Source: Candidatus Poribacteria bacterium
GTDB taxonomy: Bacteria > Poribacteria > WGA-4E > WGA-3G
NCBI GenBank assembly: GCA_022824265.1
Contig: JAJEAG010000018.1
Coordinates: 1 to 35,178 of the forward strand
Length of the DNA: 35,178 nt
Direction of reading: 5' to 3'
Shown here: positions 8,101 to 24,683 of the stretch, one piece after another
How positions within the stretch are numbered: the stretch's first letter is position 1
Layout of the letters: each line of letters opens with the position of its first letter
Made by a program: the position numbers and the translations under genes
Notes under the pieces: generated by a model
The model's input: only the letters and a program-made list of their open reading frames with translations
The model's database searches: none
What the model was told of the DNA's origin: nothing

Positions 8101-8577
8101 ATGGTTAGAACATGGCTTATTTTTGTTGTCCTGACAGTAGCATCATGGGGACTCTACGGTGTTTTTCTTCACAAAGGTCAATTAACTATGGAAGATGCAG
8201 TGCATGGACGATACAAAGCATTCCTGTTTGTAGGGCTTGCTTATCTCCTTGTAGCTGTCATAGGTTCCGCATTTATGCTGATAATAAATGGTGCTGAATG
8301 GAATTTTGCTTCCAAAGGCGTATCTTGGTCCTTTCTTGCTGGCGTTGTTGGTGCTGTCGGTGCATTTGGAGTACTTTTAGCATTCGGTGCAAAAGGCAGA
8401 CCTGCAGTCGTCATGTCCATTGTCTTTGCGGGTGCACCAATTGTGAACGCTGTTGTTGCGACGTTATCCCACCCTCCACCTGGTGGGTGGGGAGCTATCC
8501 GTTGGCAGTTTGTACTCGGTATTTTTCTCGCTGCAGCAGGTGGATGTCTCGTTACGTTTTTCAGACCAGGTACTTAG
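8101..8577 (+). CDS. Small DMT/EamA-like membrane protein
   Basis: A 158-residue protein with about five hydrophobic segments, starting WLIFVVLTVASWGLYGVFLHKG and containing AFGAKGRPAVVMSIVFAGAPIVNAVVA, which resembles one half of a drug/metabolite transporter (EamA) protein. Full-length members have ten segments in two repeats, so this would act as a dimer or with a partner. A good GGAG (8091-8094) precedes the ATG. It follows the glycosyltransferase by 95 bases. Substrate is unknown and the EamA assignment rests on membrane pattern and one conserved-looking stretch. Confidence 0.7.
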   Translation: MVRTWLIFVVLTVASWGLYGVFLHKGQLTMEDAVHGRYKAFLFVGLAYLLVAVIGSAFMLIINGAEWNFASKGVSWSFLAGVVGAVGAFGVLLAFGAKGRPAVVMSIVFAGAPIVNAVVATLSHPPPGGWGAIRWQFVLGIFLAAAGGCLVTFFRPGT

Positions 8578-8715
8578 TTTTATATTTTACAAGTTTTCAA
8601 AGTCTTTACACGATATCTGTACAAAATACAACTGTAAGGGATTGGAGCAAAAACAGGTGAGTAGGATTTGAAGATGTCATGTTTATCCTGCTGATGATTT
8701 ATGAACCGAAGCATC

Positions 8716-8733
8716 TTACAACATAAGTTGTAA
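8716..8733. promoter_or_regulatory. Perfect palindrome upstream of the sigma factor gene
   Basis: TTACAAC (8716-8722), ATAA, GTTGTAA (8727-8733), about 60 bases before the sigma factor start. The size and symmetry fit an operator for a dimeric regulator; the regulator is unknown. Confidence 0.4.
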
Positions 8734-8792
8734 ATTTCTATCCTTTTCAAGAAGTACTGTCTCTATTTGAATAGGAAAGGAGTAATTGTTTC

Positions 8793-9377
8793 ATGAGCGT
8801 GGATGAGTTGAAAGATGCTGAGGATGCAGAACTGATAATTGCTGTATTAGCAGGTAATCTTAAAGCTTTTGATGAATTAGTCTCTCGCTATCAACGCGCA
8901 ATGCTAACGGTTGCCCAGCAAGTTGTCAAAAACCCAATTGAAGCAGAAGATATCGTTCAAGATGCTTTCCTACTTGCTTTTGAAGCATTACCTCAACTTG
9001 ATAATCTAAATAGATTCGGATCTTGGCTCTATTCAATTACCCGTAATCGCGCACTACGATTCATGAAACGATCCAGCAAATTCCAACTTCATGAGGATGA
9101 AGATGCAGAATTACAAATTGAAGCAGACCCTACTTCAACTGATCCAGCACAGATATTAGTTCAGGAATCTACGCATCAGGCTGTCAGAGAATCAATAAAT
9201 TCATTACCAACTGACTTTCAAGAAGTGATTACGCTATATTATTGGGCAGAGATGCCACAGAAACGAATTGCAGATACTTTGTCTCTACCCATAACGACAG
9301 TAAAATGGAGACTTCACAAAGCAAAAGATTTGCTAAAATCACTATTAGAAAAACGAGGATACGGAGATTTGCTGTAA
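8793..9377 (+). CDS. ECF-type RNA polymerase sigma factor
   Basis: A 194-residue sigma-70-family factor of the extracytoplasmic-function type. Region 2 (about residues 24-92) shows FDELVSRYQRAMLTVAQQVV, EAEDIVQDAFLLAFEALPQ and FGSWLYSITRN. Region 4 (about 130-185) shows INSLPTDFQEVITLYYWAEMPQKRIADTLSLPITTVKWRLHKAKDLL, a helix-turn-helix that reads the -35 element. Regions 1 and 3 are missing, as usual for the class. AAAGGAG sits before the ATG at a suitable distance. No zinc-finger or membrane anti-sigma gene follows; instead the next gene, 136 bases downstream, codes for a soluble DUF4097-like protein, which may be the partner. A palindrome lies upstream. Confidence 0.93.
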   Translation: MSVDELKDAEDAELIIAVLAGNLKAFDELVSRYQRAMLTVAQQVVKNPIEAEDIVQDAFLLAFEALPQLDNLNRFGSWLYSITRNRALRFMKRSSKFQLHEDEDAELQIEADPTSTDPAQILVQESTHQAVRESINSLPTDFQEVITLYYWAEMPQKRIADTLSLPITTVKWRLHKAKDLLKSLLEKRGYGDLL

Positions 9378-9420
9378 ATCAAGTTCTCATATTCCTGTTA
9401 GATTCGGTTTTCAAACCAAT

Positions 9421-9444
9421 GCAAAATATAAATGCATATTTTGC
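9421..9444. promoter_or_regulatory. Palindrome between sigma factor gene and DUF4097 gene
   Basis: GCAAAATAT (9421-9429), AAATGC, ATATTTTGC (9436-9444): perfect 9-base arms. It lies 44 bases after the sigma stop and 70 before the next start. No T-run follows; it could be an operator, an RNA-processing hairpin or a weak terminator. Confidence 0.35.
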
Positions 9445-9513
9445 TATAAGTCCAAAGTTCAGATTTATCAAACTCACGTTATATTAAAAATAGCATTTAC
9501 GAAGAGGTTTCTC

Positions 9514-10902
9514 ATGGAACAGGAACGACATCAAGAAATTCGCGGACTCTTTCAGATACTCGAACAAACTTCAAAAATCGCAGAAGACTCAATATTGACA
9601 GAAAACTATAAAGACAGTGAAAGTCGATGCATTTCTCAATTTAATAAAGTTTTGCATCGACTGAATGAGATCAATACTGTCCCTGAAGGTCTTTTCGATC
9701 CATTGGAAGAAAATGCCACTTTTAGTGAAATTAGTATAGCATGCAATCACCTTGCAGCTTACCTTAGCGAGGGGTTGGGAATAACATCAGATTTGAAGTC
9801 CATGATGACAAATATTCTTGGTAAAAACATTATTGATACTATAAATGAAGAGTTTAAAGAGAGTGGAATTGGTGAATTAATTCGTAGTGCAATGCCTGAT
9901 TTCTTGACTGAGACTGTCTTAGATGACATCAATAGGTCTTTCAAAGCATCGTCAGATGGTTCCTTATTACTTGACACAGACTTAGGAAATATTTATGTAC
10001 AAGGAGCAGATACTGAAGATGTAAATGTAGTAGTCCACCGCGCAGCACAGATGAAGACAGATAGACATGCTGCTGAATTCATCAAAGCCTTTAACGTTAA
10101 CTTTAACCAAGAGGATACAGAACTTCACATTGAGGCAAAGTTTAGTGATGGAAAACGATACTGGACAATAGCAAATATTCGTTTGGATATTCTTTTTTTC
10201 ATTACAGTTCCAAAAACCTTTCGCAGTATCGTTGTAAAATCTGCTGGAGGAGATGTCACTGTACAGAACTTAAACGGATCTATTCAATGCCGAACTAATA
10301 GTGGACAACTTAACTTTGAAAATATAGCAGGACCTATTTTGGGTCATACAGACAATGGTAATATCAGGTTAACAAAGTGTGATGGAGATGTCCGTGTTGA
10401 TACGTTACGCGGAAACATTGAAATAAACGATATTGTAGGTCGGGTTAACACAACATCATTTGGCGGTAATATTCGCGCTAACAATGTTATCGGTGCAATC
10501 ACAACCGAAACATCTGGTGGAAACATCAAAATTGAGAACTGTAAAGGTGGTGTAACCGCTGAAACTGCCGGTGGTAGTATAGACTTGGAAAATGATGGAC
10601 CAATCACTGCAAAGACTTTTGGTGGTTCCATTAATGCAGATATAACTGGACAACTGCAAGAGGATTCAATCCTTGAGTCACCTGGCGGTGACATCACTGT
10701 CTCTATGTTATCTGACATTCTTGTTAAAATAGATGCGAAATGTAATGGGGGTGAGGTAACATCAGAACTTCCTGTGGAATTATTTGACAAAGATTTCGAG
10801 TCTACTTGGCAAATACAAGGGATTATTAATGGTGATGGACCACTTCTTAAACTTCGCAGTATAGGTGGAGATATTAATCTAAAGTCTTTGAATGAATCAT
10901 GA
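9514..10902 (+). CDS. Soluble protein with helical N-terminus and DUF4097-like beta-solenoid
   Basis: 462 residues. Residues 1-150 are mostly helical and of no family I recognise. Residues 155-460 form a DUF4097/adhesin-like repeat region, with turns such as SAGGDVTVQNLNGSI, SFGGNIRANNVIGAIT, TSGGNIKIENCKGGVT and TAGGSIDLENDG about every 19-22 residues, and a closing GDGPLLKLRSIGGDINL. There is no signal peptide or membrane segment, so it is predicted cytoplasmic, unlike many DUF4097 proteins. An ATG with GAGG upstream is used. It lies behind an ECF sigma factor, the place where an anti-sigma factor is expected, so a role in controlling that sigma factor is plausible but not shown. The Omp85 fusion at 20863-24645 has a similar region. 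Confidence 0.75.
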   Translation: MEQERHQEIRGLFQILEQTSKIAEDSILTENYKDSESRCISQFNKVLHRLNEINTVPEGLFDPLEENATFSEISIACNHLAAYLSEGLGITSDLKSMMTNILGKNIIDTINEEFKESGIGELIRSAMPDFLTETVLDDINRSFKASSDGSLLLDTDLGNIYVQGADTEDVNVVVHRAAQMKTDRHAAEFIKAFNVNFNQEDTELHIEAKFSDGKRYWTIANIRLDILFFITVPKTFRSIVVKSAGGDVTVQNLNGSIQCRTNSGQLNFENIAGPILGHTDNGNIRLTKCDGDVRVDTLRGNIEINDIVGRVNTTSFGGNIRANNVIGAITTETSGGNIKIENCKGGVTAETAGGSIDLENDGPITAKTFGGSINADITGQLQEDSILESPGGDITVSMLSDILVKIDAKCNGGEVTSELPVELFDKDFESTWQIQGIINGDGPLLKLRSIGGDINLKSLNES

Positions 10903-19748: not shown

Positions 19749-20837
19749 TCAGCTTATATTGGAAATAAAAGGTAGATTAACGACAGTGCCGCAAATGTTA
19801 TCCGTTGGAGTCTCAATCTGAATTCTGCTGCCTTTTTCAATGTGCGCCATACGAACATAACCTATGGCAATCGGTACTCCAAGTGTCGGGGAATAGACTG
19901 AACTTGTAACCCATCCTATTTCTGTGTCGTCATCTACTATGGGTAAATTTGGTTGTACAGGATTTTCATCATGTATTCTAATGCCGCGTAAGAGACGGTT
20001 CGGATGTCCACGATACTTCATTCGTGCGACGATCTCTTGTCCAATGTAGCAGCCTTTTTCAAAATCAATTGCGTGTTCTAATTCCGCTTCAAGTGGGAAA
20101 ATTGCATCTGATAATTCTGTTCCGTATCGCGGTGTACCTGCTTCAATCCTTAGCGACTCAAGTGCGTCCCACCCGACTGGTACAACATCAGATCTTGCTG
20201 TTATCATCTTATTCCATAACCATTCCAAATTGTCAGTAGCAGTATACAGATGATACCCATATTCTCCTACTGTATTTGACCTGACACAACCAATCCATTG
20301 GTTATCTATATCACAGGATAGTGAATGATGTTCTGGTAAGGTTCTGAGTTCTTTCAATCCCAATACTGATTCGACAAGTTCTGGAGATTCGGGTCCGTAT
20401 ACTGCAATAGCCCCCACTTTGTCAGATACCACCGAAAGTTCTACATCATCTGCAATAATGTACTTGTCTAATTCTGTAAAAGCTTGATCTATGCATTCAG
20501 GAGCAGTGCTGATATAGATTGTATCTTCAAAGATATAAACCTTCAGATCCGCTATTATTTTACCACGATTTGTTAATAATGTAGCATAATTCCCTTCCCC
20601 AGTTGATAGGTTTTCTACATCATTAGAGATGAGACGGTGCAAAAATATAGACCGGTCCTCTCCTGTCAGACATAGTGTTCCAAGGAATGAAATATCAGAA
20701 ATACCAACACTATTTCTGACCGCATTGTGTTCCTCAATAGGGTTGGTGAATTGAACTGCTAAATTCCAATCACCGTGTCTTCCATCAAAGGTTGCACCAA
20801 GTTTTTGATGTAATTCATAAAGCTGTGTATTTTTCAT
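19749..20837 (-). CDS. YgfZ/GcvT-like folate-binding protein
   Basis: 362 residues. It has the GcvT tetrahydrofolate fold and near residue 258 the motif KGCYIGQE, which is the YgfZ hallmark (K-G-C-[FY]-x-G-Q-E; the Cys is important in E. coli). YgfZ/IBA57 proteins support assembly or repair of certain Fe-S enzymes and depend on folate. A P-protein or glycine-cleavage partner is not close. The ATG at 20837 has an AGGAAA 5 bases upstream and gives MKNTQLYELHQKLGATF; longer frames upstream overlap the Omp85 gene and are not real. It follows the Omp85 gene by 25 bases and is probably in its operon. Confidence 0.9.
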   Translation of the reverse strand: MKNTQLYELHQKLGATFDGRHGDWNLAVQFTNPIEEHNAVRNSVGISDISFLGTLCLTGEDRSIFLHRLISNDVENLSTGEGNYATLLTNRGKIIADLKVYIFEDTIYISTAPECIDQAFTELDKYIIADDVELSVVSDKVGAIAVYGPESPELVESVLGLKELRTLPEHHSLSCDIDNQWIGCVRSNTVGEYGYHLYTATDNLEWLWNKMITARSDVVPVGWDALESLRIEAGTPRYGTELSDAIFPLEAELEHAIDFEKGCYIGQEIVARMKYRGHPNRLLRGIRIHDENPVQPNLPIVDDDTEIGWVTSSVYSPTLGVPIAIGYVRMAHIEKGSRIQIETPTDNICGTVVNLPFISNIS

Positions 20838-20862: not shown

Positions 20863-23800
20863 TCAGAACATCCGTTCCAAACGCCAGAATAGTTTAGGTT
20901 TACGTAACGTAGAATCACTGGTAATAGGGATGGAAAAGTCAAACACATTAGTAATTGGATATGGACTACCCAATGGGCTGACATAAATTGTAAAACCGAT
21001 CCCAACAGATGATTTTATCTCATTGAATGTAAAGTCAGCATAGATATTATCATCATACTCCCAAATCCGTCCAATATCCATAAAAGTACTTAGAGCCCAT
21101 CCGATATAAGCATCTGTTCCTGTGTCAATTTGGATTTCATCTGCAATTCGATGTTCTACATTGAGCATTATTCTGCTATCTCCAGCAAATGAGTTGAAAC
21201 TGTATCCACGTAGAGATTTTGATCCACCAAGGTAGAGTAGTCTTTGTCTGGGTAATGGTGCATCAGCGAAATCACCAACTATACGTAAATTTAGGTTGTG
21301 TAGTCCAATCAACGGATTATACCGCGCCAACTCAAAATTGTAGACATTATATGTAAGATCTCCACCAAGAAATCTACCAGCTATTTCAACACCGAAATTG
21401 CCTCTCCAACCACGACGTGTTCGTTCATTTGGTCTCAAGATCATTTGGCTTGCCAGATTTTCAGCACTATCAAGGCGCGATTTATGATCTCTCGTATCAA
21501 AAGTATATCTAAAGGAAATCATTCTAAGTGATCCAGTATCAATCCGAGGATTACCGAGTTTTATCAGACTGCTTTGTAAATAACTCCAGTTCGTGGATTT
21601 AAACAAATTAGAATGGTTATCAAGTGTATATTCAAGACGTAGCTGTGAGTATTGTCCAAACTTATTTGCTATCCAAAAATGTTGACCTTGACGTTGAAAG
21701 TAATTATCAGCAGAAGTACCGTAAAATGAATCACTTAAACTTATTTCAGCAGGTCGTAGACGTAAGTCACCAAAACTATAATCAGTCAGTTTGAATAATC
21801 CGACACCTAAAGTCAATGGAATACGTCTAAAGAAACTATTTTCAACTCCAACATGATAATTCAATATTTTACTTGAGACACCAATGCTTACAGAACCAAA
21901 TAATTTTTCAGAATTAATATATCGGGTGTTGAGTGTTCCACCTGCTCCAAGTGCCACACCATGAACCCGGTTGTAACCAACTATGGGGAACCAACCCGGT
22001 TTAATCAGTGATCGTTCTTGAATTTCAACAATCAGTATGTTTTTTCCACCTTCGCTTTGCACCTGCCAATCACCTACCGATTTGAATAGGTCATTGGTGT
22101 TGCTTAATTTTTTGTGCAAATTATTGACTTTTGCTTGTCCAAGTGAATGGAAATACACACCATCTGTATCTATATCAAGTGCAGAAATGAGTTCTGCACG
22201 CGAGATTTTCCTATTACCAGTAAAACGTATCTCATTTAAATAACCCTCACTTATGTTATACTGTAATACATCGTTAGAAATTCCATGGGTAACATCTGCA
22301 AAAGGAAAACCGCGGTTGAGATAAAAGTCGTTAATCATCCACTGTTTCAACTTTATACTCGCGACAGAAGTATATCCAGGCAATATATCATACCAATCTT
22401 TTATGAATTTGTTAGGAAAACTCTTATTTCCGTTGATTGATACCAGTCTTACAAAATCCACAGGTGTTTCTTTAATACTGATTTGCAAGATAACCCTCAA
22501 TGGATCGATATTTGAATTATTCTCTGATAAAGCACTTCCTACAACCTTAATATTAACTGGATTTTTCGATTTTTCTACTGGATCGACAGATTGACGGTTG
22601 AGTTCTTTTGTCTCCATAATCACTGTCTTTAACTGAACTTCCTGAAACAAATCACTGTTTTCTAATTCAATAAAAACACGAGAAAGTTGTTCATTTGTAA
22701 TTGTATTCCCAACCACAATTGGTATCTTTTTTAGCAATTCTTCAGTTGGAATATTCTTATTTCCATCTATTTCAACCGAATCAACTATGAACTTTTCTGA
22801 CACCTGATATGATGCGGGGGAATCTGCTTGTTTTTGAACTAACCTTAATTTCCCCATACCCTCTTTCCAATGGGGCCACCACGGATATTTCTCATCATAT
22901 ATCGGTAACCAATAACTATACTCTCGTTGTACAACTGGGTGCAATTCGTCTCCATTTATATGCTTAACTTGTGATTTTCGGTGAACGTTGAATAACCATG
23001 TTTCAGTACCGCTTTTTTCCTTTGATTCCCGAGGTATAGCAACTTCTAAACTCCAGTAATTAGCCGTTATTTTAGTTGCAACAACTGCGTTCGAATCCCA
23101 TGAACTGTTCCCTATAAAACGTACTACTGACTCATCGACTTTTTCTCGCTTTACATCAGGTGGAGCAAATCTGAAATTCGGGAAACCTTCTTTATTTACT
23201 CGTTGGTCGAACATTCCGCCAATTGGGTTAATTATTAGGTGTGAATAGTTGAAGGATTCTGGAGTCATATCAAGTAGAATCTCAACTGACTCATCCTCCC
23301 AAATAGGCGAATCATGTTGTGTCTGTGATATCCTTGGTATTTGCTTTTCTTGTATATGTGCTCTTACACCAATGTATAAATAGCGGTTATCCCACAATAA
23401 ATAAACATCAGTTGGATTTTTTGATGTTTTAGTTCCCATAGGATTCTGAAAATCATGGAGTGCTGTTGCATCTAACCACGCTGTTTCAGATAAATTACCG
23501 TCAATTGCGGGTGGAATTGGAGTATGATAAATTGGTTGTACATATTCAATAGCTGCTTCGTCTTGGGAACTATTGTTCTTCGTATTTTCAGAGAGACTTC
23601 GTAATTTTGTGTTTTGTAGGATGGAAATAGTACCAGAAGAGGACATTTCCAATAAGGGACCACCACCATTTATAGCAATTGTGTTATTGTCCATTTCAGA
23701 AGGTAAGTTTAGGATATAATGTTGTTTGTCATTTTTGAATTTTATATCAGCTGGATAGTCTTCGGGTAGAAGTAAACTTATATTACCTCCAATTGCTGTT

Positions 23801-24645
23801 ATTTCAAGTTGTGCTGCCAGCGCATCAAGTATTGATATATCAATTGAACCGTTGTCAGTCTTAATGTGATTTTCACCAGGAATCATCAATATTGACCCGT
23901 GAATACGACCTTTCTTGACTTCTACATTATAGTTTCCTATTGTCTCATCTAAATGTACGTTACCTATATCATTTAGGATTACTACCTTACCGCGAATACG
24001 ATGTATATATACATTACCATTCTTTACATTTAGTTTAACTGAGATATCTGGAGGAGTTTTTATTTCGTAGTCCAATTGGAGATGTTGTGTTACATCAGTT
24101 GATTTTTGTTCTTCTAATATCACATTTGAATAATCATCTGGTATTTGAGTAGTTAATTGAAGTATACCGTCAGTATTTTTCCCAGTTATAGATACGTCTT
24201 TTAGAAAAGTATCTGTAAAGATGTCAAGATTATCCCGCACACGTTTTTCAAGTGTTACAGTAATTTTCTCATCGTTTTTTGCATTATTGTCTATCGCGAC
24301 GATTCTAATGTTTCCGGGGATATCTGTTATTAATTCTACCTGTAAGACATCATGATAATTAAAATGCTGGGAGGAGGTAGGGATGGAGTTTTGTGTTTGG
24401 TCTATTCCCGTTTGTGGCTTTAAAAACCTTCTTAATTTAGCATCTTCCGATTGATCCTCAAACGCAAAAACTATGTTTGGAAATAGAACTATGACAAACA
24501 ACACTAAATATATTGACAATTGACAATGACTCAACTTGACAACAGCTCTAATGAAATAAATCAGATAGGTAATTGCAAATGATGGTGAAACTGCAATTTT
24601 TAATGAACTGTTATTTTTTTTCATCATTTCAGTTGCAGACAACAT
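20863..24645 (-). CDS. Omp85-family outer-membrane protein fused to DUF4097-like and CBM9-like regions
   Basis: 1260 residues. In order: a signal peptide (about 43-62, unusually far from the N-terminus); a DUF4097-like beta-repeat region (about 95-350; NGNVYIHRIRGKV, GRIHGSI, NGSIDISIL, GGNISLLLP, and a GGGPLLEMSSSGTISI close); a carbohydrate-binding family 9-like domain (about 365-605; IPPAIDGNLSETAWLDA, VYLLWDNRYLYIGVRA, WEDESVEILLD, WSLEVAIP); POTRA-like repeats (about 617-870; DSVEIDGNKNIPTEELL, NEIRFTGNRKISRAEL); and a barrel to the end with GGSKSLRGYSF, the L6 motif of Omp85 proteins, and terminal Phe. The ATG at 24645 has GAGG 7 bases upstream. Omp85 proteins insert or transport proteins through the outer membrane; the extra domains suggest a surface-glycan-linked version. 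Confidence 0.88.
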   Translation of the reverse strand: MLSATEMMKKNNSSLKIAVSPSFAITYLIYFIRAVVKLSHCQLSIYLVLFVIVLFPNIVFAFEDQSEDAKLRRFLKPQTGIDQTQNSIPTSSQHFNYHDVLQVELITDIPGNIRIVAIDNNAKNDEKITVTLEKRVRDNLDIFTDTFLKDVSITGKNTDGILQLTTQIPDDYSNVILEEQKSTDVTQHLQLDYEIKTPPDISVKLNVKNGNVYIHRIRGKVVILNDIGNVHLDETIGNYNVEVKKGRIHGSILMIPGENHIKTDNGSIDISILDALAAQLEITAIGGNISLLLPEDYPADIKFKNDKQHYILNLPSEMDNNTIAINGGGPLLEMSSSGTISILQNTKLRSLSENTKNNSSQDEAAIEYVQPIYHTPIPPAIDGNLSETAWLDATALHDFQNPMGTKTSKNPTDVYLLWDNRYLYIGVRAHIQEKQIPRISQTQHDSPIWEDESVEILLDMTPESFNYSHLIINPIGGMFDQRVNKEGFPNFRFAPPDVKREKVDESVVRFIGNSSWDSNAVVATKITANYWSLEVAIPRESKEKSGTETWLFNVHRKSQVKHINGDELHPVVQREYSYWLPIYDEKYPWWPHWKEGMGKLRLVQKQADSPASYQVSEKFIVDSVEIDGNKNIPTEELLKKIPIVVGNTITNEQLSRVFIELENSDLFQEVQLKTVIMETKELNRQSVDPVEKSKNPVNIKVVGSALSENNSNIDPLRVILQISIKETPVDFVRLVSINGNKSFPNKFIKDWYDILPGYTSVASIKLKQWMINDFYLNRGFPFADVTHGISNDVLQYNISEGYLNEIRFTGNRKISRAELISALDIDTDGVYFHSLGQAKVNNLHKKLSNTNDLFKSVGDWQVQSEGGKNILIVEIQERSLIKPGWFPIVGYNRVHGVALGAGGTLNTRYINSEKLFGSVSIGVSSKILNYHVGVENSFFRRIPLTLGVGLFKLTDYSFGDLRLRPAEISLSDSFYGTSADNYFQRQGQHFWIANKFGQYSQLRLEYTLDNHSNLFKSTNWSYLQSSLIKLGNPRIDTGSLRMISFRYTFDTRDHKSRLDSAENLASQMILRPNERTRRGWRGNFGVEIAGRFLGGDLTYNVYNFELARYNPLIGLHNLNLRIVGDFADAPLPRQRLLYLGGSKSLRGYSFNSFAGDSRIMLNVEHRIADEIQIDTGTDAYIGWALSTFMDIGRIWEYDDNIYADFTFNEIKSSVGIGFTIYVSPLGSPYPITNVFDFSIPITSDSTLRKPKLFWRLERMF

Positions 24646-24683
24646 CAAAATACCTCACTAATTCATACTGAAAGAAAATAGAC

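Follow-up and report, generated by a model that had tools for sequence, protein, structure and literature searches.

We describe a 1261-amino-acid protein in which a signal peptide, a Toastrack (DUF4097) domain, a CBM9-type domain, three POTRA domains and a 16-strand Omp85 barrel follow one another in a single frame. It is encoded in a 35,178-nucleotide stretch of DNA (the window), which is contig C40 of a 4.45-Mb Candidatus Poribacteria genome. By all features tested, namely the 16-strand barrel, the POTRAs and the L6 (V/I/L)RG(F/Y) motif, the protein is a member of the Omp85 superfamily, and it is an extra, phylum-specific one, because a BamA, a TamB-TamA-like pair and a WD40-Omp85 are encoded elsewhere in the genome. 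Its conservation throughout the phylum, together with its absence from the scans of other phyla, makes the architecture look ancestral in Poribacteria and so far confined to them. With a probability of roughly 50%, we regard the protein as an outer-membrane assembly factor or translocase of the Omp85 type that is accessory and specific to Poribacteria.

Domain architecture

The gene lies at 20863..24648 on the reverse strand of the window, as do all the parts of the protein given below, and it starts at a TTG at 24648 or, as is likelier, at an ATG at 24645; a 'MLSA/MLSN/MLSS' start recurs in orthologues. The frame is uninterrupted, and the N-terminal leader and signal peptide (24463..24645), with a putative cleavage site after ...FPNIVFA, has hydrophobic counterparts in the orthologues inspected, in agreement with an earlier note on this DNA, which had claimed both a signal peptide and a single frame.

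The same note had picked out by eye a DUF4097-like region, whose family now bears the name Toastrack (PMC11237479). The window protein itself scores 15.7 bits against Pfam PF13349 (DUF4097), under the cut-off of 22.9, and 28 of the 36 orthologues match the family at E<=1 (best 1.3e-9). The deep orthologue L133 (1095 amino acids) lies above the Pfam cut-offs for all four families together, with 38.6 bits for DUF4097, 41.6 for CBM9_1, 65.4 for POTRA and 64.6 for Omp85. These matches, together with the structural comparison below, place a Toastrack beta-solenoid at residues 88-346 (23611..24387).

The CBM9-type domain occupies residues 368-605 (22834..23547) and is recognized by Pfam CBM9_1 over residues 382-465 (32.3 bits; cut-off 23.4) and by a PDB profile search (1i82 at 2.1e-9), which bears out the CBM9-like domain of the earlier note. 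The Pfam POTRA family, which is matched by 36/36 family members, covers three stretches of the window protein (51.9 bits; cut-off 21.3). With the AlphaFold2 model, these define POTRA 1 (residues 619-727, 22468..22794; Pfam stretch 621-689), which contains a low-confidence insertion at about residues 680-714, POTRA 2 (residues 728-802, 22243..22467; Pfam stretch C40:22243-22452) and POTRA 3 (residues 803-880, 22009..22242; Pfam stretch C40:22012-22242). The barrel spans residues 882-1261 (20866..22005) and is matched by Pfam Omp85 at residues 1076-1242 (45.2 bits; cut-off 24). Its L6 motif, LRGY, is found at residues 1146-1149 (21202..21213); of the 72 proteins aligned, a set that includes close relatives, 65 carry R1147 and 65 carry G1148. 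The POTRA-like repeats and the barrel with LRGY had likewise been claimed before.

Predicted structure

An AlphaFold2 model of residues 64-1261, built from 36 sequences (mean predicted local distance difference test score, pLDDT, 76.5), shows a beta-solenoid, a beta-sandwich, three POTRAs and 16 barrel strands, the last counted at positions 819-1193 of the mature model; the relative placement of the domains is unreliable at its predicted TM-score of 0.50. When the whole model was compared with known structures by Foldseek, BamA structures were the best matches (7nri, E=7.1e-26).

A second model, restricted to residues 88-615 (pLDDT 79.8), gave as its top match Thermotoga CBM9-2 with cellobiose (1i82, E=8.9e-8, TM-score 0.71 by target), followed by 4jpq, a putative carbohydrate-binding protein, and 7nwo, a CBM9 from Caldicellulosiruptor with glucose. 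The matches 2ivf_C and 7b04_C, heme-binding proteins whose fold is related to CBM9, rank beneath the true CBM9s and were not favoured. The Toastrack part of this model matched 4qrk (E=6.4e-7), a cited example of the Toastrack fold (PMC11237479), as well as 4opw (3.9e-3), 3pet and 3ljy. Both folds are thus recovered, and the earlier note's concern that neither might appear in a structure prediction did not hold; its domain borders (95-350, 365-605, 617-870 and 880-1260) lie within a few residues of those in the model.

Candidate sugar site in the CBM9 domain

Thermotoga CBM9-2 clamps its sugar by Trp71 and Trp175, and CBM9.3 does so by Tyr89 and Trp191 (PMC8280721). In sequence alignments, W450 of the window protein (23299..23301; motif SPIWEDESVEILLD) falls on the first of these clamp residues (motif NPWEQDSVEIFID). 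The candidate for the second aromatic is W580 (22909..22911), whose motif EYSYWxP is near-invariant and lies in the C-terminal loop that holds the second clamp residue of CBM9s, its equivalence to Trp175 being suggested by position and not by alignment.

Among the 72 aligned proteins, W450 is conserved in 66, W580 in 69, D452 in 71, and N474 and W532 in all 72, and the candidate-site residues are retained also in the deepest orthologues, L133 and L134. These near-invariant aromatics make glycan binding by the domain plausible. A CBM9-type domain occurs in other large exported-type proteins too, as in the CBM9_1-DUF5916 protein (L004) of the same genome.

Distribution in Poribacteria

Matches were found in 85/85 Poribacteria genomes examined, and in 68 of them the match runs unbroken, within one frame, through some 1000 or more of the model's 1218 positions; in the other 17, it is cut by contig ends, diverged (family f5) or shortened (family f3). 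Members span Poribacteria families f1-f10. The nearest named relative protein is 93% identical, and full-length members range from there down to about 25%, with the single-frame architecture extending to deep lineages at 25-30% identity. The search for this domain order that the earlier note had proposed thus returned the same order in one frame, and its worry that an assembly error had joined two genes is not borne out: 68 independent genomes, some of them consisting of a single contig, share the order across that whole range of identity, so that we reject a chimera and give it a negligible probability.

When one genome from each of 84,980 species was scanned with three sequence patterns, which reached members at 28% identity and which very distant ones could escape, 65 loci were found, of which 63 are titled Poribacteria; the remaining two (L131 and L132) are CBM9-only matches, and the architecture was not found beyond the phylum. 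A profile search at 1e-40 in 201 genomes from the phylum to which L131 belongs found none, an empty result with no internal control within those genomes, although the profile matches 85/85 Poribacteria. The architecture was not found in a plasmid search either.

Comparison with known Omp85, CBM9 and Toastrack proteins

The genome encodes a five-POTRA BamA of its own (C19:41260-43491) and a TAM-like pair (C8:49704-54133), in which a TamB-containing frame of 2127 amino acids directly precedes a four-POTRA Omp85. Further Omp85 proteins are a three-POTRA protein on C19, a WD40-type on C80 and two more barrels on C47. The C80 protein (L057) carries a WD40-like (PD40) beta-propeller fused to the barrel and belongs to a known subfamily. 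The C47 barrels, of 809 and 783 amino acids (L053:4748-7177 and 8369-10720), are neighbours and cluster with the family of the window protein, apart from BamA and TamA, in the barrel tree.

The window protein shares with BamA the order of POTRAs and then a 16-strand barrel with the L6 RG motif, but it has three POTRAs instead of five, and Toastrack and CBM9 stand in front of them. Its score against the BamA equivalog model NCBIfam TIGR03303 is 72.8 bits, compared with a cut-off of 297.15; this score and the separate BamA on C19 reject a housekeeping BamA. With TamA and 'BamA-like' Omp85 proteins of 1-3 POTRAs, it has in common that it carries three POTRAs and is additional to BamA, whereas it differs from TamA in its extra N-terminal domains and in that no TamB adjoins the gene, TamB lying next to the different Omp85 on C8. 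That separate TamB-linked Omp85 and a score of 19.9 bits against NCBIfam NF047950 (TamA; cut-off 625) reject TamA. WD40-Omp85 and PlpD-type proteins resemble it in having a non-POTRA N-terminal domain added to an Omp85 barrel, but there the addition is a beta-propeller or a patatin (PMC4104836, PMC11116518).

Compared by subfamily text, none of the ten Omp85/TpsB subfamilies of Heinz and Lithgow (2014, PMC4104836) fits, and none of the ten subfamily descriptions in that text names Toastrack or CBM9. A literature search returned nothing on Poribacteria with Omp85, and no description of the architecture was found. The 'unusual build' of the earlier note is therefore apt with respect to the published classification, but the build is normal within Poribacteria.

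The CBM9-type domain has the fold of known CBM9 modules (Thermotoga Xyn10A CBM9-2, 1i82; Caldicellulosiruptor CBM9.3, 7nwo), their N-terminal motif PxIDGxxxE...W, and W450 at the clamp position, although it sits on an Omp85 barrel and not on a glycan-active enzyme, and its binding is putative. CBM9-DUF5916 proteins of the same genomes also place a CBM9-type domain before a large C-terminal part, which is DUF5916 there and POTRA-Omp85 here. Toastrack proteins such as LiaG, LiaF and LiaX share the beta-solenoid fold (4qrk, 4opw); the window version differs from them in that it follows a signal peptide and is fused to an outer-membrane barrel. Toastrack has been argued to be intracellular in the systems studied by PMC11237479.

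Shortened orthologues

In three genomes of family f3, which belong to the same order as full-length members, the orthologues have only 649-687 amino acids (L046:5779-7842, reverse strand; L047:5969-7960 and L048:4675-6624, forward strand). A short linker joins Toastrack and barrel in these proteins, leaving no space between them for CBM9 or POTRA domains, neither of which Pfam detects, so that they are POTRA-less Omp85 proteins with a soluble N-terminal domain. In the barrel tree, they group with full-length proteins of the same order at support 90/95, below the starred level, which is consistent with loss. CBM9 and the POTRAs were lost together in f3, and since f5 in turn is without W450, Toastrack and the barrel are the most constant core. 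The full-length form, the form with a degraded CBM9 and the form without CBM9 and POTRAs make up a natural deletion series that can be used to probe the role of each part.

Proposed function and alternatives

An assembly factor or translocase is favoured as the most economical reading because the POTRAs and barrel are as in other Omp85 proteins, and the classically studied members act in outer-membrane protein assembly or translocation (PMC4104836, PMC11116518). The barrel and POTRAs would act on some of the outer-membrane or surface proteins, folding them, inserting them or letting them pass, presumably through beta-augmentation and lateral opening, as BamA and TamA do. The arm ahead of POTRA 1 would remain periplasmic, since the N-terminal enzyme domain of PlpD does so (PMC11116518). 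There the Toastrack solenoid could present flat sheets to a protein partner, the CBM9 domain could bind a glycan, whether on the substrate, on a surface polysaccharide in transit or in peptidoglycan, and the two would supply clients to the barrel or position it. The near-invariance of the W450/W580 pair hints faintly at what the earlier note had guessed, that the protein may recruit glycan-bearing proteins or feed the insertion of surface polymers. A more ambitious proposal, which we hold tentatively and consider rather less probable, is that the protein represents a new Omp85 subfamily, which became fixed close to the root of the phylum. Its lectin-like CBM9 and its Toastrack would provide the assembly or translocation machine with a glycan-dependent input, so that sugar selects what is delivered into the outer membrane or across it, and one family would have reduced the machine to Toastrack and barrel without POTRAs.

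Several observations weigh against a role in assembly or translocation with sugar input. At least one family, f3, can do without CBM9 and the POTRAs, and in f5 the CBM9-type region is partly kept and W450 is lost. The W/E motif is widespread across CBM9-type domains, which are mostly putative binders. No partner operon or client gene was found among about 60 loci, where only housekeeping and TRAP genes are conserved, in f1, and the neighbourhood is not maintained beyond that family. Finally, PlpD shows that other functions may be open to Omp85 proteins to which a periplasmic domain has been added (PMC11116518).

PlpD is also the precedent for the main rival, in which the protein is a membrane anchor and not an insertase, its Toastrack and CBM9 binding peptidoglycan or another envelope glycan so as to report on or stabilise the envelope; in PlpD, a periplasmic N-terminal domain with a novel function rides on an Omp85 scaffold (PMC11116518). 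Toastrack is a recurrent component of envelope-stress systems (PMC11237479), LiaG and LiaX models weakly match L133, and the loss of all POTRAs in f3 with Toastrack and barrel kept would be easier if POTRA-driven insertion were non-essential. However, the POTRAs are retained in nearly all other lineages and the barrel retains its L6 motif, and we rate the anchor as somewhat unlikely, at perhaps one chance in five. That the barrel instead exports its own Toastrack-CBM9 part, as a surface adhesin for sponge or marine glycans, would suit the sponge habitat of Poribacteria (PMC3909097), the origin of the solved sugar-bound CBM9 modules in secreted xylanases and the annotation of the nearest Toastrack structures as putative adhesins. 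Such self-secretion appears unlikely, because the POTRAs sit between passenger and barrel, the architecture is retained in the deep lineages L133 and L134, and the equivalent claim for PlpD has been overturned (PMC11116518). Slightly less probable still is that the CBM9 derives from the CBM9-DUF5916 proteins of the same genomes and that the fusion serves polysaccharide export or uptake instead of protein assembly. Besides L004, many relatives with CBM9 matches in frames of about 690-800 amino acids, at 30-36% identity, speak for this, but no consistent neighbour gene for polysaccharide synthesis or uptake was seen at the loci examined and Omp85 barrels are not known to conduct polysaccharides, which counts against it.

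Genomic neighbourhood and other secretion genes

A YgfZ/GcvT-like gene (19749..20834, reverse strand; Pfam GCV_T) begins 28 bases after the stop codon and is probably co-transcribed with the Omp85 gene. It has no evident functional link to it, and a homologue is present at 48/61 loci. In f1, the conserved block around the gene comprises TRAP-transport genes, the YgfZ/GcvT-like gene, a TIM-barrel gene, a PMT-family gene and a GNAT gene, and an adenylate kinase lies divergently upstream with the TIM-barrel gene.

Elsewhere in the window, a sigma-70-family, extracytoplasmic function-like sigma factor (8793-9377, forward strand) is followed by a second Toastrack protein (9514-10902, forward strand; PF13349, 47 bits). 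About 10 kb from the Toastrack-Omp85 gene, the two look like a stress sigma factor paired with a Toastrack protein.

A role in secreting cargo of the type IX secretion system was considered because no Por structural genes were reported in published single-cell genomes of Poribacteria (PMC3909097). The genome has 36 matches to the sorting tail of that type (TIGR04183), and a 2155-amino-acid frame at C14:35302-39261 gives collinear, below-cut-off matches to the translocon SprA. With this divergent SprA-like frame present, the cargo role was set aside; a divergent type IX system in Poribacteria may have been overlooked earlier.

Significance

Omp85 diversity is defined by the parts ahead of the barrel, and the published classification is without a carbohydrate-binding-type or Toastrack subfamily. 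The combination described here is no one-off fusion, since an entire uncultured phylum has conserved it. If the CBM9 domain binds a glycan, the protein would illustrate outer-membrane assembly or translocation guided by sugar, of which we found no description. The combination also bears on the way in which Poribacteria construct their cell surface within sponges.

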